Source of the DNA: a virus
IMG/VR virus record: IMGVR_UViG_3300031857_000291
Location: 1 to 50,656 of that record
Direction: 5' to 3' (one strand)
Length of the DNA stretch: 50,656 nucleotides
Under the pieces are notes generated by a model. The model searched no databases. It saw nothing but the letters and a program-made list of their open reading frames with translations, and was not told where the DNA came from. A program made the position numbers and the translations under genes. Positions 1,832 to 47,397 of the stretch are shown here, piece after piece; the first letter of the stretch is position 1, and every line of letters begins with the position of its first letter.

Positions 1832-4207
1832 TTACTCCACTTCAATCCGGGCCACGCGGCCCTTCTCGCGCACGATGCGCTTGGGCCTGCTGATTGCAGC
1901 AATCGCCCGATCGGCATTCTCTCGCAACGTGCTGGAAACGTCCGCCATAGCAGCGCCCACGCCCTGCACCGCCTTGTTGATATCTGCAATCTTAGTTTCC
2001 ATCGTCTGCTCGACGCGGGTTACAGTTTGATCAATCTCGGACACCTTCTCGCGCAAGGTATCCACCACCTGCACTATTTCACCACTGGCCACCTTCGTGC
2101 TCTGGTTAGCGGCAAGCTCCTCCATCACGGCGGCGAGCTTGGCTTCCTGCTCTTCAAGCTGACGGCGCTTGATGGCGTTGTCAATTCTCATTGACTCTGC
2201 CTTAAGAGTGTCAAATTCGCTCATAGGCTTGGGCTGCGCAGCGGCAGGGCTGGCCGGGGCACCGCCCGCAGCAGGCGCTCCAGTGCCGTCCTTCTGCGGG
2301 CCCATGATTTGTGTGAAGTGCCTTGCCAACGCACGCTTGTTCTCGTTTTCTTCTTGAATCTGAGTGATGCGCTCTTTAGTCTGGTTAGTTTCCCGAGTCT
2401 TCTCAAGTGCCACCACCTGTGCAGACGTCTTCTCCTTGAGTTGCTGCTGCATCTGCTGTAGCTGAAGCATCGCTGCGCGGAGCTGCTGCTGTAGTTGTGC
2501 AACCTCAGGGTTATCCATGGTAAAGAACCTGCTGCCATCCTGGTAACCAAGATGACCAAAGATTTCTTTTCCAACCTCCACCATATTAACACCCGGCACA
2601 GGGTTGCGCAGCATGCCGGAGTACATATTCATCGCAGTGAGGAACTTTTGAAGCTTCTGCCCAGGGTCCGTAGCGCCCATCCCCACATTAACAGTGAGTG
2701 TTACTTCCTGGTTGAGTAGCTCATCAGTAACTTCGTCTACCCCAAAGCGCTGGAGCAGCTTGGCATTCTTAGCTGCAAGGCCAAGAATTACGCGGTCAGT
2801 CTCGTAGGCTTGCTCAAGCAAGATCAGTTGCCGCAGTGCGGGCTGGATGAACGTTTCAACGTATGTGCGGATAAGATACTCAACCAGAGTTCCATTGCTC
2901 TGGTTGAGCATGCTCATGTTGCGGGCGGGCGCGTTGGCTGCGCCCGCCATCATGATTGCTGCGGGGTTGAAATTACCCAGCAACTCGTCCATCGACATGT
3001 CGAGACCCTGTTGCTCCATGTAGGAACTCTGGGTAACGTCAGGCCAGGAAATTTCGCGTACGTCGTTGATGGGGTCGTTCATCATCACAACGCCACCGGG
3101 CACGTTGCGGACGAGGCCTGCTAGGTCAACTTCAACACCGCGCTTGGCAAACCACTTCTTATTCAGCGCGAACTTGACGTTGTCAATGCGCTGGTTCGCA
3201 ATCTCGTTAATCTCGTCCTCAAGTCCCCGGGCCAGCGTGGGCACACTGCTGGGCATGGGCTTGTGCGTCTCAAGAATGCAGGAGCCAATGACGTAGGGCC
3301 TACGGCCGTGAAACACCTCGTCCTTGAGTGGGACGGGGTCAGTCAACAGGCCGTACTCGCCCAGGGTGTAGAAGGTGTACTCCTCGCCATCCCTACGATG
3401 AATGTGCCGCTGCACCCAGGCAATTTCATAGTCCCCAAGGGCGCGAGTGTCGGCGCTCTGTGGGTCTTCCTTGTTGGCATTGCGGGCGATGCGCGTACTG
3501 TCAAAGTTACTGCTGGCCGTGGCAAGGCTGATAGGTAGCGTCTTCCACTCGCCGCTCTCCATCTTTGCCCGGATGTCCATGGCGTGCATGGGGATCAGGT
3601 GGATGAAGTAGGGGCTGGTGCCCACTACGTCTATCCAGCTAGCGGCGGGGTCAAACCTGACGTTTTCAATGGGGATGAGATCGATCTGCGGCTTGTCAAC
3701 GTTCTGTAGCTCGTCGTACAGCCAGTGTACGTGCCCGCACACCACTCCGGTAGTCTGTGCGTCTTGTATGCCGCCCATCACCACCTGGAACCAGGGGATG
3801 GTACGCGTCAGCCGGTACTGGACAAGCTGCTTCATCACCTCGGCGCTGGCTACCTGCGCCTTGTCCGACTGGTCGCCCGCGCCAATACTCACCACGTCCA
3901 CATTGCTGAAGAACGCGGCAGCAGCCGCAGCCTCGTTTTTCCGGATTACGGAGCGAATCTTGGGTCGGTACAGGCGGCTGCGCTTGTCGTACGCGGGGGC
4001 GTTGTACTTGCTGTCCGACGGGTGCATGTTGTTGAATGCACGGATGCTATCTTCCCACGCCTTGCGCCAGTTGCCGTCCACATAGCTGGTGCTGCTACGG
4101 AACGCGCTCCTCGCCCGGGACAACCACTCGTCAGATCCGGTATCTTCGTCCGGATTGCCGTTCTGCGCAGTGGGCGGAGTGTTGGTTCTGGCGATGTCGG
4201 AAATCAT
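1832..4207 (-). CDS. Portal protein (about 791 aa)
   Basis: This is the likely dodecameric portal through which DNA is packaged and ejected. The start is set at ATG 4207 because it overlaps the TGA of the upstream gene (ATGA) and has AGGACA before it; an in-frame start at 4246 would overlap more. Length of about 790 residues fits the larger podovirus portals. The N-terminal half contains KRSRLYRPKIRSVIRKNEAA and long helical segments. The last 230 residues are predicted coiled coil (Gln-rich LQQQLRAAMLQLQQMQQQLK, then repeated Glu/Lys heptads), as in the barrel of P22-type portals. It lies downstream of the terminase genes. Identity rests on size, position and overall character rather than one diagnostic motif. 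Confidence 0.75.
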   Translation of the reverse strand: MISDIARTNTPPTAQNGNPDEDTGSDEWLSRARSAFRSSTSYVDGNWRKAWEDSIRAFNNMHPSDSKYNAPAYDKRSRLYRPKIRSVIRKNEAAAAAAFFSNVDVVSIGAGDQSDKAQVASAEVMKQLVQYRLTRTIPWFQVVMGGIQDAQTTGVVCGHVHWLYDELQNVDKPQIDLIPIENVRFDPAASWIDVVGTSPYFIHLIPMHAMDIRAKMESGEWKTLPISLATASSNFDSTRIARNANKEDPQSADTRALGDYEIAWVQRHIHRRDGEEYTFYTLGEYGLLTDPVPLKDEVFHGRRPYVIGSCILETHKPMPSSVPTLARGLEDEINEIANQRIDNVKFALNKKWFAKRGVEVDLAGLVRNVPGGVVMMNDPINDVREISWPDVTQSSYMEQQGLDMSMDELLGNFNPAAIMMAGAANAPARNMSMLNQSNGTLVEYLIRTYVETFIQPALRQLILLEQAYETDRVILGLAAKNAKLLQRFGVDEVTDELLNQEVTLTVNVGMGATDPGQKLQKFLTAMNMYSGMLRNPVPGVNMVEVGKEIFGHLGYQDGSRFFTMDNPEVAQLQQQLRAAMLQLQQMQQQLKEKTSAQVVALEKTRETNQTKERITQIQEENENKRALARHFTQIMGPQKDGTGAPAAGGAPASPAAAQPKPMSEFDTLKAESMRIDNAIKRRQLEEQEAKLAAVMEELAANQSTKVASGEIVQVVDTLREKVSEIDQTVTRVEQTMETKIADINKAVQGVGAAMADVSSTLRENADRAIAAISRPKRIVREKGRVARIEVE

Positions 4208-4545
4208 GTAGACTTGTCCTGTAGCGTGAGCATCTCGCCATTCCACGCGCCACGGGGCACGCCGCAGCGCTCAAGCAGCTCGCCACCAGCGCGGACTACG
4301 TTACGCTCCAGCTCGCTAACCGTGGCGGCGCGGTGCGCGTCAACGGTAAAGCCGTAGCGCCCGTCGTCAATCGCCATGTTCTTCACCACCAGGGTGCGGC
4401 CCGGTGCCCAGCCCACCATCCACACATGCGCGGGGTAGTGGTTGCTGAGCACTTGCGCTGCCAGCTTGGCAATGAGCTCCATCTGGCTATTTTCGGCGTC
4501 TCCAGCGGTGGCTTCGACGGTGGCAATGTCAGCAGCAGAATTCAT
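4204..4545 (-). CDS. Unknown small phage protein (113 aa)
   Basis: A 113-residue acidic N-terminus/mixed C-terminus protein, start ATG 4545, ending in an ATGA overlap with the portal. I do not recognise a family. There is no Shine-Dalgarno sequence just before the ATG. Instead a TACACTA box lies 6 bases upstream, as also seen before the cupin gene at 42358. It sits between tailspike 1 (with a decayed gene fragment) and the portal, a spot where accessory genes appear to have been inserted. Confidence 0.7.
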   Translation of the reverse strand: MNSAADIATVEATAGDAENSQMELIAKLAAQVLSNHYPAHVWMVGWAPGRTLVVKNMAIDDGRYGFTVDAHRAATVSELERNVVRAGGELLERCGVPRGAWNGEMLTLQDKST

Positions 4546-4551
4546 GGAGCG

Positions 4552-4558
4552 TAGTGTA
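4552..4558 (-). promoter_or_regulatory. TACACTA box just upstream of the 113-aa gene
   Basis: On the minus strand TACACTA ends 6 bases before the ATG at 4545. The same heptamer with the same 6-base gap precedes the ATG at 42358, and it occurs upstream of 6701, 9119 and (further away) 13292. It resembles a -10 element; if so the transcript would be almost leaderless. No convincing -35 is present, so promoter function is unproven. Confidence 0.3.
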
Positions 4559-4579
4559 ACAGGGCCGGGGGCCTAGTGG

Positions 4580-4672
4580 CTAGTGCCGTGGCGCTACGCG
4601 CAGCGTGATGCCTACGTGCCCGAAGGTGCGGAGGAACCAGCGGATGATGTGGGGTGCTGGGCGGGGGGTCAT
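4580..4672 (-). pseudogene. Truncated duplicate of the HExxH mini-protein gene at 42728-42988
   Basis: Immediately after tailspike 1, a 30-codon frame begins MTPRPAPHIIRWFLRTFG. Its first 24 residues match the start of the 86-residue gene behind tailspike 2 at 21 of 24 positions, and the DNA is clearly similar over about 70 bases. After residue 24 the two diverge and this copy ends in RVAPRH and a stop, so it lacks the HExxH part. It is a decayed remnant that records duplication or recombination of a tailspike together with its downstream gene. Confidence 0.7.
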
Positions 4673-4674
4673 GG

Positions 4675-6495
4675 TCAGACGGCAATCGTGCCGAACGTCT
4701 TCCATGTGCCTGGCGTGCCGGCACTTGTACACACCCAGCCAATGTTTCCACCAGCAGATGGTTGCGAATGCCACACAATATCGCCCCGCTCCCATGTTCC
4801 GCTTGTAGGCACCGTGTAACTGGCGAATTGACGAGAATACAGATTGGAAGCGGCTGAACCCCTGTAATCGTAAAGGGTCATCTGCATTCCGGGCGCGTTC
4901 TGTCCACGCCCGTACAGAGGAGACAGCGCAGCCCCGGCGTCATTCTTCGCCCAGAAATAGGTCTGATTCGGATACGTCTCATTCTCCACAACAACGGCAT
5001 CCGTGTAGTCCACGACAAACTGCTGACCAGCAGTGGTCATATTGGTCGTGTACACGTTCCCAGAAACCACATTCAGTTTCCTGGCGCGCACAAGCTCACG
5101 GGTGGCGGCCCCGGTGGAATAGGCCGCACTCGGGCAATAAACCTGATTGCTGATAAATTCGCCGCCGCAATCCATCTGCAGCATGATGGCGCCGCCGTTG
5201 CTTACTGAGTTTTCGTTGACAAACGAACAGTCTCGGATGATGACCTGCTGGTCATAGATCGATCTGGAGGCGTCTTTGACCGCCAGCAATGATTGATTTT
5301 TTCCATACACAACGTGGTCTTTTATGCTCACTGTGCTCAACATATCTGAGTACAGAGGTGTGATGCGCGGGTTTGTTGCGGCGCCAGTCGTCAGTCGTGT
5401 CGTGCCGCCCGTAATCGAGCCATTCTTTACCGCAAAGATAATTTGATCAGAGCCAGAGGCAGACGCTCCAACCTCGAAGTATGGGTTTTCAAAAACGATG
5501 TCATCGACATTTCCCGTTGATGCGATGGACGGGTAAGTTGGCGACGCAAGATTGATACACGCAAAAATTGATCCCCCGTTGCCCGTAATGCGAGGATTGA
5601 CGAATTTAAGCTGCCGTACTACCACGCCAGTAGTTACGTTTGGCTCAATGTCCAAACCTGCGCCAGGAGCATAAGACCCGAACGATCCAGTGTTCCCCGT
5701 GTCACGAAAACGGCAGTTAATAAACGTGCCGTTGAACAGCCCGATGATGCTGCACCCTTGGCGACCGTTGTTATAAGAGTCGAGATTGATAACCGCAAAA
5801 TTGCGCGATTCCGTAGAAATTACTCCAGCCGTGAATTGATGGTCGATGTAAAGGCCATCGTTGGGGTGGTCGTGCAGTACCGGGTTGATTAGCGTCACAT
5901 TCTGACACCCAAAAAACTGCAGGCCATGCTCGCCCTGCTCGGTCCCCACCTTTGTGCCTGTGCTGACGTTGCCGTTTGTCTTGACGTTTTCCAGAAGCAC
6001 GTTCTTGCATCTGCGAAAAACAATGTTTGACGAAGTAAGCGATGCCGAATGAACAAAATCGGCCTTGAGACTGATTTCTGCGCCAGCATCAAAAACAAAC
6101 GTCAATCCGTCGCAGTCTGTAAATTCGATGTTGACCGTGTTCGGTGCGCCTGTCTGAGCTATGTAATAAGTGCCCTTCGGCCAAAGCACAAACCCGCCGC
6201 CTTGAGCGTTGACGTAGTTTTTCAAAGCGACAATCGCCGCCGTGTCGTCGGTCACCCCGTCGCCAACCGCCCCGAAGTCCTTCACGCTCACCGTCTCGCG
6301 CATCTTGGCCTGCGCCGTGCGCGTCTGCGCCCCTGTACCCGACTGGATAAACCCCACCCAGGCAGCGCCGTCACCATCGGCCAATAAGCTGGAGAGCGCG
6401 ACACGCTTGGTAGTGCTACCCTGCACCAGGGGCAGCAGTTCGGTGCCGTCGGGGGTCGTAGCGGCGGGGAGCTGGGAGATTTTGATGTTACTCAT
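4675..6495 (-). CDS. Tailspike 1, pectate-lyase fold (606 aa)
   Basis: Probable receptor-binding tailspike, possibly a polysaccharide depolymerase. Residues 1-60 are a short particle-binding or neck region. Next comes a segment shared with tailspike 2 (GFIQSGTGAQTRTAQAKMRE), then VKDFGAVGDGVTDDTAAI, the signature at the start of pectate-lyase-type right-handed beta-helices of phage spikes. Residues 120-520 are a long solenoid rich in Asn, Gly and Val. The C-terminus (WERGDIVWHSQPSAGG to GTIAV) is a small cap domain. Start ATG 6495 overlaps the preceding stop. It lies between terminase and portal, an unusual place for a spike, since the second spike sits with the neck genes. No catalytic residues can be assigned by eye. 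Confidence 0.85.
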   Translation of the reverse strand: MSNIKISQLPAATTPDGTELLPLVQGSTTKRVALSSLLADGDGAAWVGFIQSGTGAQTRTAQAKMRETVSVKDFGAVGDGVTDDTAAIVALKNYVNAQGGGFVLWPKGTYYIAQTGAPNTVNIEFTDCDGLTFVFDAGAEISLKADFVHSASLTSSNIVFRRCKNVLLENVKTNGNVSTGTKVGTEQGEHGLQFFGCQNVTLINPVLHDHPNDGLYIDHQFTAGVISTESRNFAVINLDSYNNGRQGCSIIGLFNGTFINCRFRDTGNTGSFGSYAPGAGLDIEPNVTTGVVVRQLKFVNPRITGNGGSIFACINLASPTYPSIASTGNVDDIVFENPYFEVGASASGSDQIIFAVKNGSITGGTTRLTTGAATNPRITPLYSDMLSTVSIKDHVVYGKNQSLLAVKDASRSIYDQQVIIRDCSFVNENSVSNGGAIMLQMDCGGEFISNQVYCPSAAYSTGAATRELVRARKLNVVSGNVYTTNMTTAGQQFVVDYTDAVVVENETYPNQTYFWAKNDAGAALSPLYGRGQNAPGMQMTLYDYRGSAASNLYSRQFASYTVPTSGTWERGDIVWHSQPSAGGNIGWVCTSAGTPGTWKTFGTIAV

Positions 6496-6701
6496 GGCGT
6501 GCCGAGGTTAGGGTTGTAGATGCCGGAGCGGGTACGGTCCGTGCTGTCAAACTGGCGGGAGTTGCCAAACTCGTACGCGCCGTGGTCAGGCGCACTAAAC
6601 TCGCTGCCCCAGGCACGCTCAACTAGCTGCTGCCAGTTGATTGTGCCCGTGGTTACGCGGCTAGTAATCTGGCGGGTGGTGGCGCTGGTGGGTGCGGGCA
6701 T
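6492..6701 (-). CDS. Small protein between terminase and tailspike 1 (69 aa)
   Basis: The 69-residue product (MPAPTSATTRQITSRVTTGT at the start) is coupled to tailspike 1 by an ATGA overlap. A GGAG ribosome site lies 6 bases before ATG 6701 and a TACACTA box at 6712-6718. No family recognised. The coupling to the spike suggests a function linked to it, for example assembly or attachment, but that is inference. Confidence 0.65.
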   Translation of the reverse strand: MPAPTSATTRQITSRVTTGTINWQQLVERAWGSEFSAPDHGAYEFGNSRQFDSTDRTRSGIYNPNLGTP

Positions 6702-6756
6702 ACGTGCTCCGTAGTGTAGTGGGCATGCAGGGGCGGGGGCAAGGGGGCAGTCTCAG

Positions 6757-8355
6757 CTAGGTGTACTCGGGCTCCAGGTAGCCCACTTCCCGCAACGTGG
6801 GGGCGTGGGGCTCCATGTCATAGATGCGTGAGAACGCATCTACCAAGTCTTTGTTCCCGCCGAAGGGGAAGAAGTGTACTTGCAACCGCAAATCTTTACT
6901 TAGGTCGTAGATTTGGTTGCTCTCGTCCTTGCGCTTGATTGGCCGCGCAATGCGGTGCGCGTAGCCGGTATTCTGCATCTTGCGCTGCGTGGCGGTCAGC
7001 TTGTCGTCCTCGGTGTCGTAGGGCAGGTAGATGCGGTGGCTGCGCAGGTCAGGCCCCAGGCGCTGCACGCGGTCAACCTTGCTGCCCTCGCTGTCTCGGG
7101 GCCACATAAGCTCCTCAATGGGGAAGTGCCCGCCCTCGTTGGGCTTCTGCATCTGCTCGGCAAAGTAGTCCAAGTCAGCCTGAGCGCCAAAGGCCTCGTA
7201 GCCCACCTTTACGTTCTGTACGCCGGGGGCACGCTTCCAGCGGTGGAACATTTGCGCGGTGCGGGTCCAGCGCTCGCGCAGGTCCATCTTGTGGTTAAAG
7301 CCATCTAGCAGATACTTGTTGAGCGCATAGTCAACGCCCACAACGGCAATGGCGGTCTTGGCTGAGCCCTTCTTCTTACTGCGGGCGGGGTCAACCATGA
7401 TGTAGACGTTAAGCACCTCGGGCCGTACTTCGTACGTGCGGAGGTCCTCCACGTTGAACATGCGCTGCTGGCCAGCCAGGGGGTTCTGCAGCATCTGGCA
7501 GGAGATGGTAGCCTCGCCCTGGTCCCGCACCTTCTTGTCCCAGGTTTCCTGCGTAAAGAGCACTGGCGTGCCGGTAATGGTGCCGTCAGCCGTGGCGGGG
7601 TGCAGCCGCACCACCACAGACTTACGCTTGATAATCTCCTCGTACGTGTCGGCGTACGAGTAGCGGGTGCCAATGTGCCACTTGCGCCCCCCGGCGGTGC
7701 CGAGGTTGTCGCTAAGTTCCCAAGCCTCGGTGGTCTTGGCAATCTGCTCCGGGGTGGACACTGACTCGCGAGTTACGACGTCATCATACACCATGAGCGC
7801 AAAGTGCTTTGACGTCGGCTGCCCGTCCACTAGGCCATGAGCCTCAATGGTGTTCTCCTTGGGGTTGCTGCTGCGGCAGACGGTGATGCCGTTGTCCAAA
7901 CTCCAGGACGGTGCCTCGCGTTCTGGATTCTGCCAAAAGATAGAGGGGAACTGCGCCCGCAGGTCCTCATTCTTCTCAAACTCTTTCTGTATCTGGCGCA
8001 GAAACGCCTTGGCGATTGGCTTTGTGTGGCTGAACAAACCGATGGTAATTTCGGGATCGTTAATTATCTCTTGGATAATGCCAGCAAAGGTGATAATCGT
8101 GCTCTTGTAGTGCTCCCGGGCCCAGAGGTCGAGGTAGCCGTCGCGGGCTGCCTCTACCTCCCGCGTGCGGGCGTACAGCCAGGGGTGTATAGCATCCGGC
8201 CGGTGCAGGGTTTTAACTAGGAGGTAGTACCTATCATTCTGCGAGAGCCAGGGCTTAATCTGGTCCGTGGGGAAGCTACCCTCCAGTATCTGCCAGAACT
8301 CTGAAATAGAGTGGAACGGCGCGGCCAGCAGCGCGGCTTTAATTTCCGGCGTCAT
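6757..8355 (-). CDS. terL: Terminase large subunit (532 aa)
   Basis: ATPase and nuclease motor for DNA packaging. The N-terminal ATPase domain shows a deviant Walker A (AREHYKST, residues 79-86) and a Walker B followed by acidic residues (FALMVYDD, residues 185-192). The C-terminal nuclease domain begins with YIMVDPARSKKKG (Asp322) and continues with the segment YALNKYLLDGFNHKM typical of RNase H-like terminase nucleases. Length of 532 residues is normal. It starts inside the end of the small-subunit gene (17-base overlap), so both are co-translated. The terminal 50 bases after its stop are non-coding. Confidence 0.9.
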   Translation of the reverse strand: MTPEIKAALLAAPFHSISEFWQILEGSFPTDQIKPWLSQNDRYYLLVKTLHRPDAIHPWLYARTREVEAARDGYLDLWAREHYKSTIITFAGIIQEIINDPEITIGLFSHTKPIAKAFLRQIQKEFEKNEDLRAQFPSIFWQNPEREAPSWSLDNGITVCRSSNPKENTIEAHGLVDGQPTSKHFALMVYDDVVTRESVSTPEQIAKTTEAWELSDNLGTAGGRKWHIGTRYSYADTYEEIIKRKSVVVRLHPATADGTITGTPVLFTQETWDKKVRDQGEATISCQMLQNPLAGQQRMFNVEDLRTYEVRPEVLNVYIMVDPARSKKKGSAKTAIAVVGVDYALNKYLLDGFNHKMDLRERWTRTAQMFHRWKRAPGVQNVKVGYEAFGAQADLDYFAEQMQKPNEGGHFPIEELMWPRDSEGSKVDRVQRLGPDLRSHRIYLPYDTEDDKLTATQRKMQNTGYAHRIARPIKRKDESNQIYDLSKDLRLQVHFFPFGGNKDLVDAFSRIYDMEPHAPTLREVGYLEPEYT

Positions 8356-42028: not shown

Positions 42029-42358
42029 TCAGTTCTCCACGATGAGTTGTGCGTCCACCTTGTCTGGGTCTGTTTCACCCGTGTGATGAATGCAGTACCA
42101 CAGACTATCTTTAATTGACGCGATGGAGTGGCTCAGCCCCGCAGGAATGTTGATTACTGCGGGGGCGTGATATTCGCGCTTGCGGTCACCAAGCTGGACC
42201 ACTACATGCCCACTCGCGAGAATGGACATGTGGTCGTGCGTGTGGCGATGCTGTACCAGCGTGCGTCCAGCGGGGATTGATATTTCCTTGGCGTATACGC
42301 CACTGGAAAAGTGGTGCGTAACTTCGCAGCCAGCTTGCTCTAGGGTAACAAGTTCCAT
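42029..42358 (-). CDS. Cupin-domain protein (109 aa)
   Basis: Single cupin: RTLVQHRHTHDHMSILASGH supplies the metal-binding His cluster and APAVINIPAGLSHSI the second motif. The WYCIHHTGETDPDKVDAQLI end is typical of a small cupin family seen in phage late regions. Start ATG 42358 is preferred; an upstream ATG (42469) would overlap the previous gene by 74 bases. A TACACTA box lies 6 bases upstream and there is no ribosome site, so this may be a separately expressed moron. Ligand unknown; sugar or small-molecule binding is possible. Confidence 0.75.
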   Translation of the reverse strand: MELVTLEQAGCEVTHHFSSGVYAKEISIPAGRTLVQHRHTHDHMSILASGHVVVQLGDRKREYHAPAVINIPAGLSHSIASIKDSLWYCIHHTGETDPDKVDAQLIVEN

Positions 42359-42364
42359 AGCGGG

Positions 42365-42371
42365 TAGTGTA
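42365..42371 (-). promoter_or_regulatory. TACACTA box upstream of the cupin
   Basis: Minus-strand TACACTA six bases before ATG 42358, the same distance as at 4552/4545. Candidate -10-like element for a nearly leaderless transcript; no clear -35. Confidence 0.3.
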
Positions 42372-42395
42372 CCGCGTGGGGGGCCATTGCCGCAA

Positions 42396-42731
42396 CTAGG
42401 ACACCTCTCTCCCGCTACAGCGGAAGTTGATGGCGCTTGCGGTGCCGGCGAGGGTGGAAATAAATCCATTAGGAGCGAGTACGTGCCCCACCAGCTCGGG
42501 GAAGGTGTAGGTTTCGCTAGGTTGCAGCGTCTTCGCTTTGGTAATCAAATTCTGATTGCCCGCAGTGTCTGACGGCGTAACCAAGTTGACGCTGATGGTT
42601 GACGCCGTTGCGCTGTAGTTGGTGGCCGTCACCTTGTCAATAATCGCAGTCACGCCCGTGGCGGTGTACTGCGTGGTCTGCATAGCCTCAGCAATTTTTG
42701 CTGGGACCAGAACCTTTACGATTACTGTCAT
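42396..42731 (-). CDS. Small beta-rich virion-region protein (111 aa)
   Basis: MTVIVKVLVPAKIAEAMQTT, then Thr/Ser-rich beta strands (ATNYSATASTISVNLVTPSD) and an end of NFRCSGREVS. Resembles small structural-region proteins of many phages, possibly a fibre-associated or decoration protein. ATG 42731 overlaps the stop of the metallopeptidase-like gene. Function unknown. Confidence 0.7.
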   Translation of the reverse strand: MTVIVKVLVPAKIAEAMQTTQYTATGVTAIIDKVTATNYSATASTISVNLVTPSDTAGNQNLITKAKTLQPSETYTFPELVGHVLAPNGFISTLAGTASAINFRCSGREVS

Positions 42732-42988
42732 TCTGCTCTCCTAGCTTCGATTTCGAGCGGGTTGTTCCGGTAGCCGTGCCGCAGCAGGCCCCACAGGTAT
42801 GTCACATACCACCGCACCACCCCCATCCGCTGGGCCTGCTGCCAGTGGCACTGCTCATGCCTGATGAGCGGCGCTTCGTTGATGCGCTCGGCCAGGATGA
42901 AGATGCCCAGCGGCGGCAGCGTGATGCCTCCGTACCCGAAGGTGCGGAGAAACCACCTAACGATGTGTGGCGCTGGGCGGGGGGTCAT
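42728..42988 (-). CDS. HExxH mini-protein, metallopeptidase-like (86 aa)
   Basis: RHEQCHWQQ is an HExxH zinc motif (APLIRHEQCHWQQ, residues 40-52) and RNNPLEIEARRAE at the end supplies a possible third ligand, as in minimal metallopeptidases. A hydrophobic helix (RWYVTYLWGLLRHGY) lies between. ATGA overlap couples it to tailspike 2. A truncated copy of its first 24 codons follows tailspike 1. May process the spike or virion, or be an inactive relic; not tested by sequence alone. Confidence 0.65.
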   Translation of the reverse strand: MTPRPAPHIVRWFLRTFGYGGITLPPLGIFILAERINEAPLIRHEQCHWQQAQRMGVVRWYVTYLWGLLRHGYRNNPLEIEARRAE

Positions 42989-45099
42989 AGTGAACCAAAG
43001 GCAGACAATATCCAGCTAGAACCGTTGTACTCAACATCGCACCATTGACCTGCTGCAAGCGCCTTCAACGGGCCGGTCCCGACGTTCAAATTAAACGCGC
43101 CAGTCGCAGCGGCGGTGCGAACGATGCGAAATTTTGCACCGTTGTACGCACCAGTTGTGTCTAGTCCAGCAGATCGATTTCCAGTCAATGCAGTGTTCCA
43201 GATGGAGGTTATGGGATCGCCAACATAAAGTATGGCGTCGGCGTTTCCATAATCCGCAGAAACACGCTCGGTCCTTGAAACAGTTGGGCCAGAAAACGGA
43301 GTTTCAGCTCGCATCTGGCGGTTATTTTCCCAATAGACAGTGTTTGCGGTAGGCGAACCGTCCTGCAAGTACGAGACAGATCCCGCAACACCGTTTCCAA
43401 CAAAAGACACATAGTTGTTCGCCAAAGACACATATGTGCCGCCTGTATTTCGGATACCGACTTTCGCTTCAACGGTCACATCATCAACGTGTACCCAGTT
43501 GTCAGACACGTTGAGCCCATAACAGGTGGTAGTCCAGATGCACGCGCCAGATGTGTTGGGGTCATCCGTGAAGGTCAATGTGTTACCAGTCACGCGAGAC
43601 TGCGGAACATCTACGCCACCAAAGCGGTCAACGTAGATTGAGCCATCGACCAAACGATTCCCGGTAATGACAATGCCGCCTCGTGTCAGCGCCGTGTCCT
43701 GCGCGCAGTAGATGCCATCGCCCACCGTGCGACTGGTTCCATTCAACAGCGCAATGATGTCGTTGTCGGCAATCAGGCCGTTCCTGGAGTTTGACGCTGG
43801 CGCAGAAGGGTGGTTTGAACAGCGAATCACATGCTGCGCGTAGCCCTTGCAGTGGTTGCCGATGATGCTGAAGCCGTCAACGCCTTGCATGAAAATGCAG
43901 GCGTAAGGGTCAGTGCCAGCGCCAGTATTCTCAAACCGGTTATTGGAAACGCTAAGGCGAGCGCCATGACTACCTTTAAGCGCCAAGCCGCCATCAATGG
44001 CGTATCCGATATTCCCATTTATGATGCCGTTTTCGCAAAACGAGAAGTAAAATGGAAGGTTGCTTTGCGGAGCTAGTGAATTTGTCGTATACCCGTAATT
44101 CCCTTCGACAACAAAATTTCCGACATACAACCCGTAGATTGCGCCACCATAATCAGAAAACTCGACAGAATTACCCAACCACTTGGCATCCGTTCCGTAT
44201 TTGAAAGCAACTTCCGAGTGATGCGATGTTGCGTCACCTGATCCTTTGTTTTTTACGCGCACATTGGAAATCGTTGCGCCTTTGAAAAATCGAATCTGGA
44301 CACTGTTGCCGTCCCAGTTGTCGAACAAGCAGCCATTGACGAAATGGTCTTTTGTGTAGCCCGCTCCTGTGTAGGTGTCTCCACCAGCAAAGACACCAGT
44401 AATACGGATGCCCTCACTCAAGCCATTGAGAAAATATCCTCCGCTGACCCGTACCCGATTGCCGGTGAAGTTGAAGATTGCGTTTGAGTCTTCGCCGTAT
44501 ATCACAACAATAGGCAGCGCGACCGTGTTCAGAATTCTGGATGTTCCAAAATCAATTTCAATGTCACTGGACGCAGTAGTGACGGCAGCGTTCACGAGGT
44601 AAGACCCCGTTGGGAAAACCACTCTTTTGCCGCTTGATGCCGCAAACGCCGCCTGAATCGCCGCCGTGTCATCGGCCACCCCATCGCCCACCGCGCCAAA
44701 ATCTAGCACGCTCACCACCTCTCGCATTTTGCTCTGCGCCGTGCGTGTGACTGCGCCGGTGCCAGCCTGAATGAAGCCTACGAGCGAAGATCCCCCTGGC
44801 TGAGAAAGTGCTGAGGACACAGCCGCTTCGTCGGTCACCACGTTGTCTACGGTCCAAATCTCAGAGTCGTTAGAGTCCGTAAGCCTGAACTTGTAGCTCG
44901 CAGCAGGGAGCCACACGTTGGCTTCCCCACGGCTGTCAAGAATTACGGGGTTGGTGTTGGCAGCGGTCTGTGCCTGATCAACATACGTGGTCTGGGGGGT
45001 GAGCGCACCTGCTGAGTACGTGTACAGCTTGCCGCCGACCAGGGGGTTGCCGTTAGCGTCAAAAAACTGGATTTTGGGGGTGGGAGTCAAGCTGGCCAT
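42985..45099 (-). CDS. Tailspike 2, pectate-lyase fold (704 aa)
   Basis: Second receptor-binding spike. Residues 1-90 form the particle-binding domain (IQFFDANGNPLVGGKLYTYS, then DSRGEANVWLPAASYKFRL), common to many podovirus spikes. Residues ~100-140 (VGFIQAGTGAVTRTAQSKMR, then LDFGAVGDGVADDTAAI) are shared with tailspike 1. A long beta-helix follows, with Asn/Gly-rich turns, and the C-terminal domain ends VEYNGSSWILSAFGSL. Its first domain attaches it to the neck/tail proteins encoded just upstream. ATG 45099. Depolymerase activity is plausible but catalytic residues are not assigned. Confidence 0.87.
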   Translation of the reverse strand: MASLTPTPKIQFFDANGNPLVGGKLYTYSAGALTPQTTYVDQAQTAANTNPVILDSRGEANVWLPAASYKFRLTDSNDSEIWTVDNVVTDEAAVSSALSQPGGSSLVGFIQAGTGAVTRTAQSKMREVVSVLDFGAVGDGVADDTAAIQAAFAASSGKRVVFPTGSYLVNAAVTTASSDIEIDFGTSRILNTVALPIVVIYGEDSNAIFNFTGNRVRVSGGYFLNGLSEGIRITGVFAGGDTYTGAGYTKDHFVNGCLFDNWDGNSVQIRFFKGATISNVRVKNKGSGDATSHHSEVAFKYGTDAKWLGNSVEFSDYGGAIYGLYVGNFVVEGNYGYTTNSLAPQSNLPFYFSFCENGIINGNIGYAIDGGLALKGSHGARLSVSNNRFENTGAGTDPYACIFMQGVDGFSIIGNHCKGYAQHVIRCSNHPSAPASNSRNGLIADNDIIALLNGTSRTVGDGIYCAQDTALTRGGIVITGNRLVDGSIYVDRFGGVDVPQSRVTGNTLTFTDDPNTSGACIWTTTCYGLNVSDNWVHVDDVTVEAKVGIRNTGGTYVSLANNYVSFVGNGVAGSVSYLQDGSPTANTVYWENNRQMRAETPFSGPTVSRTERVSADYGNADAILYVGDPITSIWNTALTGNRSAGLDTTGAYNGAKFRIVRTAAATGAFNLNVGTGPLKALAAGQWCDVEYNGSSWILSAFGSL

Positions 45100-45116: not shown

Positions 45117-45878
45117 TTAGTGAGAGTTGATGTTGTTGGACACGGTGACGATGATGGACGGAATGCCCGGATGCGGAGCGGCGGCGGGCACGGCCAGCAG
45201 TTCCACTGACAAATCACTTACAGAAAACATGATCTCGACGTAGTCGCCGGCTTTGAGGCTGAAAAAGTAGTTCAGGGCCGAAAAAATCTCGGCGTTGTTG
45301 CCCTGGATTCTGATTTGACTGGCAGAGTCAGTGACGTCCACACCATTCTTGCGAAACCAGATGTAAAGCTCTGCGGTGCCGCCACTCGTCTTGTCGAATT
45401 GAACGGACAGTTGCAGGTTGTAAATTCCGTCCGTGTCCACGTTGATGCGCGACTGCGGGGAACCGCTCAGGAACACGCCGGATGACAGGTCCGTGGTGTT
45501 CAGCGTTACCTCGGTGGCCGTGTTGATGGTCGTCGCGGTTTGCGTGGCGGTGCTGTAAAAAGACCCGTAGCGCGACCGCTTGAACTCACGTTGCGGAGTG
45601 TACGCGGGTGCCAGCGCCAGTGCCTGTACTTCGGCTTCTAGCTGTGCGATTTGGTCAACCGTGGCAACGGTAGGCAGTGTCTGGCTCTCCTGAGCCGCAG
45701 TAGCCAGCGCCATAGTGAGTGCAGCCAGCGCAGCCCCTATGTCGGGTGCCTTGGCGTAGTCAGTATCTTCAACACCCGCGCTAGACGTAGCAAGCTGACT
45801 AAACCACGCCAACCAAGCCGACGTCAACGCGCCTGAGGAGTTAGCTATGGGAATTTGTAATGGTGGGGGGCTAGTCAT
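45117..45878 (-). CDS. Neck/tail-tip protein with jelly-roll-like C-terminus (253 aa)
   Basis: Residues 1-90 are helical (GAALAALTMALATAAQESQT), then AQLEAEVQALALAPAYTPQR, and the last ~130 residues form a beta sandwich (VFLSGSPQSRINVDTDGIYN, then GTAELYIWFRKNG and SLKAGDYVEIMFSVSD) like the C1q/TNF-type knobs at the tip of tail needles and fibres. Positioned between gp10-like and tailspike genes, where P22 places gp26, so a tail-needle role is possible. Start ATG 45878 overlaps the previous gene by 8 bases. Confidence 0.6.
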   Translation of the reverse strand: MTSPPPLQIPIANSSGALTSAWLAWFSQLATSSAGVEDTDYAKAPDIGAALAALTMALATAAQESQTLPTVATVDQIAQLEAEVQALALAPAYTPQREFKRSRYGSFYSTATQTATTINTATEVTLNTTDLSSGVFLSGSPQSRINVDTDGIYNLQLSVQFDKTSGGTAELYIWFRKNGVDVTDSASQIRIQGNNAEIFSALNYFFSLKAGDYVEIMFSVSDLSVELLAVPAAAPHPGIPSIIVTVSNNINSH

Positions 45879-47397
45879 CTCCACCCTCAATGTCAACACT
45901 GCCAGAGGCGAGTACAAATTTCACAGGGTCCACTACGGTAATCTGCACAACAAGGTCCCGTGCGGAGCCAAGGCGGCGCAACATCACCCGCGTGGTGTAG
46001 GCTCCCAGCTTGCCAAGGGGCACCAAACGCTCGTTGCCAAATGTGCGCCCACCGTCTCTGGAGATGCGCAGCATCACGCGTGGATCCAATCCCGCAATGG
46101 TGGCCTGCTCAACCTCAATGTAGGAGCCTGCCTCTGTTACTAGGAAGTCACCCACCTCAGTTAGCAGGAGACCGTAGAAACCAAGCGGGTCCAGTCCACT
46201 AAGGCCAATACCGGTCTCAAAGTCAAGGAACAGCTCGGAGATTCCAAACTCGTTGCCCTGGTTCCGCACATGGCGGGTGACAACCTGCCGCTTGATTGGG
46301 GTGTCTGTGTCGGTGTATGTATTGATGTCTAGTAGATACAGGGCTCCGCTAGTGGTGTCGCTAACGTAGTTTCTACCATTGAAGGTAATGCCGTACTGTG
46401 CAAAGTGCCGCGCCTGCTCGGCTACGCCTGTCTGCGCCTCGTGCCATATGGCGGTCTTAGTATCGTAGGCGAATGACCTATTTTCTGTGGGGAAGGTTAT
46501 TTGCCAGATGGGGTGTCCGTACACCGTGTAGGTGAACGCGACTGCATCGTCCACCCGCGAGAACGAGGAAAACAGAGTGTTGAGGTCTGAGTCGCTAATT
46601 TCCTCAGGTGCGTAGCCGTTGAGCCGGATAGCGGAAATGCCACCGTCGGGCGCGTAGCCCAGAAAAATGTAGGTGTTGCCCACCTCTACAGAAGAGAGAT
46701 CAGCGGCTAGGCCCCAGCTCTGAGTGGCTCCGGTAATGCGCTGGTACGGTAGGGGGACAGAGCCAACGTCCTGCCAAAACTCAGTAGACTGCTGGCCCCA
46801 GAGCACCAGGGTGCCGTTCAAGTTGCCGACGCGCAGTAGCAGGTCACTATTGTTTTCCTTGGTGCCGAAGATTGGCAAGGACCCCAGATACGTCCACACA
46901 AGTCCGTCAAGTAAAGCACTGACGTAAAACTCACGCGTCCCGGGCTTGTTGACTATGAATCTTCCGTTGAGAAAGATTACAGACGTCGCACCCGTGGGGA
47001 AGAATGTAGTAGTAATGCTGGTGAGCGCACCACTGCTCACCGTGTAGACGTAGCCGGGACCACCTGTTACGAGGATGAGCTGTAGGCTATTGTCCGCAAA
47101 CTCGACGCGCCCACTGCCGGAGATGCCGGTCGCAAGCTGCGTGTACGCCCCAGCGGTGTCCACACTATACAGCACGCTCCCGGCCACCACGTACAGCGTG
47201 GTACCAATGACGTGCCACCCCCGCACGGGGGTGGTGGGTAGTGTGGTCCATAGCACGCTGCCGGGGGTGCCCAGCAGCACCACGGCGGAGCGGTCTTGGT
47301 CTTTGCGGATGTCGTACAGGCAGTTGAGTCTGCGCTGCCGAGTGACGATGTCCGATATGGCGCGGATGCCCGTACCAAAGAGCGGAATCGTACGCAT
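45871..47397 (-). CDS. P22 gp10-like head-completion/DNA-stabilisation protein (508 aa)
   Basis: Start MRTIPLFGTGIRAISDIVTR, then repeated beta-propeller-like blades (GTPGSVLWTTLPTTPVRGWH, LYVVAGSVLYSVD, FADNSLQLILVTGG, YAPDGGISAIRLNGY). P22 gp10-like proteins plug the portal after packaging and have this blade-type look and length (about 470-510). It follows the gp4-like gene with an overlap, as in P22. Strong combination of length, order and repeats, no single motif. Confidence 0.75.
   Translation of the reverse strand: MRTIPLFGTGIRAISDIVTRQRRLNCLYDIRKDQDRSAVVLLGTPGSVLWTTLPTTPVRGWHVIGTTLYVVAGSVLYSVDTAGAYTQLATGISGSGRVEFADNSLQLILVTGGPGYVYTVSSGALTSITTTFFPTGATSVIFLNGRFIVNKPGTREFYVSALLDGLVWTYLGSLPIFGTKENNSDLLLRVGNLNGTLVLWGQQSTEFWQDVGSVPLPYQRITGATQSWGLAADLSSVEVGNTYIFLGYAPDGGISAIRLNGYAPEEISDSDLNTLFSSFSRVDDAVAFTYTVYGHPIWQITFPTENRSFAYDTKTAIWHEAQTGVAEQARHFAQYGITFNGRNYVSDTTSGALYLLDINTYTDTDTPIKRQVVTRHVRNQGNEFGISELFLDFETGIGLSGLDPLGFYGLLLTEVGDFLVTEAGSYIEVEQATIAGLDPRVMLRISRDGGRTFGNERLVPLGKLGAYTTRVMLRRLGSARDLVVQITVVDPVKFVLASGSVDIEGGDD

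Follow-up and report, generated by a model that had tools for sequence, protein, structure and literature searches.

Tailspike cassettes at two sites of a phage genome have conserved flanks and unrelated bodies and are probably exchanged between phages

In this study we find that the two tailspike genes of a 50,656-base viral record (59% GC; the whole stretch analysed, hereafter the window) probably belong to receptor-binding cassettes that are swapped, between conserved flanking sequences, at two sites of the genome, and that spike 1 came to its site by such an exchange and not by copying within the genome. A cassette of this kind would consist of a spike with a conserved neck before its body and, behind the spike, a small gene, p86, present whole or only by its first part.

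Results

Spike 1 (4675-6495, minus strand; 606 aa) is built of an anchor (residues 1-46), a neck (about residues 47-112) and a beta-helix body with the C-terminus, while spike 2 (42985-45099, minus strand; 704 aa) has an anchor of a different family, the shared neck and an unrelated body. Both contain the Pect-lyase_RHGA_epim domain (PF12708) above the cut-off (4.6e-9 in spike 1 and 1.8e-10 in spike 2), and both match PHROG tail spike families, those of spike 1 being tail spike and tail fiber families. On these matches the two proteins are pectate-lyase-like beta-helix tailspikes, with this domain behind an N-terminal anchor and with predicted roles in binding and depolymerization. Comparison of the two loci by BLASTN returns a neck block of 102 nt at 81% (E 6e-23; 6232-6331 against 44656-44757, both on the minus strand), which forms the front flank of the cassette, and a block of 76 nt at 87% (E 8e-22; 4600-4675 against 42916-42991), which covers the final bases of the spike and the beginning of the gene behind it, p86. 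Beyond these two blocks BLASTN gives no convincing alignment of the loci, anchors and bodies being unrelated, and at the protein level the spikes have a single match of 48% over 124 aa. The alignment of the loci thus confirms what a first-pass annotation had described, namely two spikes with different bodies and a shared neck, each followed by the same gene, which is intact after spike 2 and decayed after spike 1. The intact p86 (42728-42988, minus strand) encodes 86 aa with an HExxH motif, and its start overlaps the spike-2 stop. The truncated p86 (4580-4672, minus strand) is a 30-codon frame in which codons 1-24 are homologous to the intact copy (4601-4672) and are followed by six junction codons and a stop, so that it represents a remnant of the rear flank. 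The GC content is 0.51-0.52 in the spike bodies and 0.60-0.68 in their flanks, as expected of exchanged modules.

The p86 protein is a small HExxH protein and a predicted metallopeptidase. H44, E45, H48, E79 and E81 are invariant in 16 sequences, and E79/E81 may act as the distal acidic ligand. PHROG searches match p86 to phrog_37302 (7e-16) and, weakly, to phrog_15610 'protease' (0.007), and its structure model (pLDDT 93.8) matches a viral protein named DUF4157. Searches of PDB by fold and by sequence give no significant match to p86, the VIA rows at Z 2-3 being too weak to use, and no Pfam family is found for it. There are two distant matches in cultured phages, and bacterial genomes hold only distant relatives, which give no clue to the host; the only papers found on DUF4157 near phage tails deal with contractile injection systems. 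Synonymous conservation was also considered as a mark of a DNA signal in the start of p86, and this candidate was rejected, as the minimum of synonymous variation in the family lies at codons 26-40.

We propose that receptor-binding cassettes occupy two slots of the genome, site 1 from the terminase and 69-aa genes to the 113-aa gene, and site 2 from the 266-aa gene to the 111-aa gene. At site 1, the large terminase subunit (6757-8355, minus strand; phrog_38, 2.1e-42) and the 69-aa gene (6492-6701, minus strand) stand on the left, and the left junction is probably at the 3' end of the 69-aa gene, because this gene is shorter than its counterparts in the related contigs L006 and L020 (96-115 aa). 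On the right stands the 113-aa gene (4204-4545, minus strand), which is conserved in relatives at 37-97% and finds no match in Pfam and PHROG searches; its leader (4546-4579, minus strand) is the resident side of the right junction. A TACACTACG motif, resembling a promoter -10 element, precedes both the 69-aa and the 113-aa genes (within 6702-6756 and 4546-4579), occurs also before the 69-aa gene of L020 and is slightly altered before both genes in L006.

The content of both slots varies among relatives. Site 1 is empty in two contigs whose terminase is 63% identical (L022/L023), holds a spike with a spike-2-type anchor and an intact p86 in L020, and shows the same order in L005, where the contig end cuts p86 at codon 60. 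Other spikes or fibres occupy it in four further contigs (L009, L010, L012, L013), a 313-aa short fibre in L017/L025, and five kilobases of other genes, partly fibre-like, in L006/L018/L024. The gap between the terminase and the 113-aa gene is therefore an ordinary receptor-binding slot and not a new insertion point, and the earlier proposal that spike 1 had been inserted there at a new place is not supported, as L020 and L005 already have a spike with p86 at this position. In L017 (56-2743) the terminase relative is interrupted in frame, between 'WAREHYK' and 'STIITFAG', by about 320 aa that look like an intein; the insert starts with ALAIDTPVPT and ends with GVTTHN, and its initial alanine would be compatible with an intein of class 3.

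At site 2, the right neighbour is the conserved 111-aa gene (42396-42731, minus strand; 78-86% in L114/L116). The site holds a spike without p86 in L114/L118/L124 and no spike in L116 and L119. A spike of this type at site 2 is found in none of the five contigs that reach both sites (G004, G006-G009, of which G009 ends soon after), and G007 has a fibre-like protein there. The contigs L034 and L052 present the same region with and without the spike, and the right border of the difference lies within the first codons of p86. The window also encodes a Cupin-domain protein of 146 aa (42029-42469), whose PHROG matches bear the names short tail fiber protein and tail fiber adhesin and which is kept at the same place in L114, L116 and L118. 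The counterpart of the window's 508-aa gene (45871-47397) in L119 (6998-9280) is interrupted near residue 426 by a glycine-rich insert of 252 aa that keeps the reading frame.

Spike 1, the 24-codon p86 fragment and the 113-aa gene are unchanged in contigs from two other metagenomes (L001, L002), so the spike-1 junction is no assembly artefact. A search of viral contigs for a donor of the spike-1 body gives only the same phage, and the corresponding search for the spike-2 body adds to the same phage only three viral contigs (L128-L130), in which the match is confined to the last ~97 aa of spike 2. In a search for near DNA relatives in a phage collection, the first 25 kb of the window find only matches of about 50 nt and no cultured near relative.

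The neck, with the consensus VGFIQ.GTGA.TRTAQ.KMRE.VSV.DFGAVGDGV.DDTAAI, is a common lead-in to pectate-lyase-like beta-helices, and a search with the first 114 aa of spike 1 gives 132 matching records of cultured phages. At the protein level the neck of spike 1 is 67% identical to that of a cyanophage spike over 64 aa, compared with 65% over 66 aa to that of spike 2 in its own genome, and by BLASTN it is 88% identical to the group of L034 and 81% to spike 2. The spike of the L034 group has the anchor type and the neck of spike 1 and an intact p86 directly behind it; this spike (L034, 563-2275) also carries a Peptidase_S74 (endosialidase chaperone) domain, which is absent from both spikes of the window.

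Cassettes of spike and p86 were gathered from other phages through p86 and the terminase. Thirteen cassettes in which the neck is clear, two of them from the window and 11 from other contigs, were compared in 78 pairs; these pairs are not independent, since p86 itself served to find the cassettes and some of the cassettes are mutually related. In all 78 pairs the necks are alike and the p86 starts are alike, and the bodies have no DNA similarity; across phages, then, the body changes completely while both flanks stay alike, which is what exchange of cassettes predicts. Over the 78 pairs the neck block of 102 nt has a median identity of 76% (range 62-88), against 76% in the window's own pair, and the first 72 nt of p86 have a median of 90% (range 71-99), against 88% in the window's own pair. 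The two cassettes are an average pair, and their likeness, though much greater than expected by chance, is ordinary between spike cassettes of different phages; in neither flank do the window's two copies stand nearer to one another than to those of other phages. These sequence comparisons do not support duplication within the genome, because the necks and the p86 starts are no more alike than those between different phages. Of the earlier idea that a spike and its downstream gene had been copied as a unit within the genome and inserted, the unit itself stands, as it recurs across phages, while the copying and insertion are not supported. A more elaborate history, in which the spike-2 locus was duplicated together with p86 and the anchor and body of the site-1 copy were later replaced and its p86 cut, would explain why both flanks are common to the two loci in the same order and why the two p86 starts have five minority bases in common (rank 2 of 231 pairs). 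However, three other phages are equally close to the p86 fragment overall (63 of 72), the flanks are as alike as those of different phages, the L034 group offers a closer match to the neck of spike 1 than spike 2 does, the different anchors would require replacement on both sides of a 100-nt neck, and relatives already use site 1 as a slot for spikes. We consider this history improbable and favour exchange over copying, because all 78 pairs are alike in their flanks only and the window's own pair is average among them. Against exchange stands that the search of viral contigs gave no donor of either body.

HNH endonuclease genes have entered p86 at two positions in other phages, each leaving a complete but recoded p86. 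In L007, codons 1-25 of p86 are followed by a 171-aa HNH endonuclease gene (HNH_3, 7.3e-18; phrog_99, 1.5e-61) and then by a complete p86, in which codons 1-30 are heavily recoded and the remainder is normal. In L044/L047, a different HNH gene (phrog_374, 6.7e-57) lies near the 3' end: p86 is normal to about codon 67 and is followed by a recoded 3' end, the HNH gene and the native last codons. The arrangement of these genes resembles that of mobile endonuclease genes which supply a replacement end to the gene that they invade. Among the nearest relatives of the L007 HNH gene, only L007 itself comes from the list of p86 contigs.

The p86 fragment of the window ends at ...GGCATCACGCTGC, at most 1 nt from the HNH insertion point of L007 at ...GGCATCACGCTGCC, a coincidence of about 1% were breaks spread evenly along the 258 nt of p86, although the comparison concerns two cases and was made in hindsight. 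Past the break comes the leader of the 113-aa gene, which resembles that of L006, and for this reason the right end of the cassette, broken at p86 codon 24/25, would appear to have been joined to the resident flank. Since the break sits where L007 carries its HNH gene, the fragment may be the scar of that joining with HNH cutting as a plausible cause, a reading that we hold tentatively and at somewhat less than an even chance. About evenly balanced, in our judgement, is the possibility that the truncation has nothing to do with endonucleases and is a plain illegitimate recombination or deletion whose end fell by chance at codon 24. Phages commonly undergo such deletions, no HNH gene is seen beside spike 1 in the window, and L007 is the only other truncation at that point; nevertheless, an unrelated deletion would have to account for a break within 1 nt of the L007 insertion, at the odds given above, and in a gene that is the target of two different HNH genes. 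We consider it very improbable that the truncated p86 still functions, as a short gene or as a regulatory element, and is no remnant. Its ATG and 24 conserved codons are kept, unchanged in the contigs from other metagenomes, but these contigs are the same phage and hence give no sign of selection, the fragment has neither the HExxH helix nor anything after it, and the codons with the lowest synonymous variation lie outside it.

Discussion

The most likely course of events that we can propose is that phages swap spike bodies by homologous recombination, which takes place in the neck and in p86, and that spike 1 would have arrived in its slot by such an exchange and not via copying of spike 2. 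Conserved motifs that flank exchanged receptor-binding domains have been published for lytic coliphages (PMC10408124). The rear motif of the coliphages is 20 nt of non-coding DNA, whereas the rear flank of the cassettes described here is coding, consisting of the start or the whole of p86 (75-258 nt, with a median of 90% in the first 72 nt). The two-spike state in itself is ordinary. Kutterviruses are an example of phages with two or more spikes, and like the window they have more than one spike with different bodies, the sequence shared between their spike genes being thought to aid recombination (PMC10408124); in the window, unlike in Kutterviruses, the two spikes lie at genome sites far apart and have different anchors.

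The HNH genes within p86 also have counterparts in known systems. The fungal mitochondrial genes atp6, atp9, cox2 and nad3 are described as hosts of mobile endonuclease ORFs that bring with them a replacement for one end of the gene (PMC3630166). The order in L044/L047, with a recoded 3' end of p86, the HNH gene and a native 3' remnant, is like that of the fungal ORFs, and L007 is its mirror image at the 5' end; the fungal enzymes, however, are of the LAGLIDADG or GIY-YIG families, while those in L007 and L044/L047 are predicted from sequence to be of the HNH family and sit in a phage gene. Free-standing homing endonucleases and intronless homing are known in phages, such as T4 SegF and MobE and the HNH enzyme of Skunavirus, and such enzymes move neighbouring markers (PMC2988022, PMC12724721). 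The genes in L007 and L044/L047 are similar to these, as they are intronless HNH genes in or beside a phage gene. The window differs in that no such gene adjoins spike 1 and only its break point matches the L007 insertion. We speculate that a cut in p86 could be repaired from a co-infecting phage, with the neighbouring spike body carried along. That HNH homing endonucleases targeting p86 promote the movement of spike cassettes between phages, with the fragment of the window as the scar of one round, is a conjecture that we regard as rather unlikely.

As far as our searches show, a protein-coding rear flank that is invaded by endonucleases is a new combination. Which bacteria a phage can infect depends on the exchange of receptor-binding domains, and conserved flanks have been proposed as the points of exchange. 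In the cassettes described here an identifiable gene, p86, forms the rear exchange point; it is common to many uncultivated phages and has been invaded by HNH genes at two positions, and the invaded p86 may therefore provide a concrete and testable link between selfish endonucleases and the evolution of host range.
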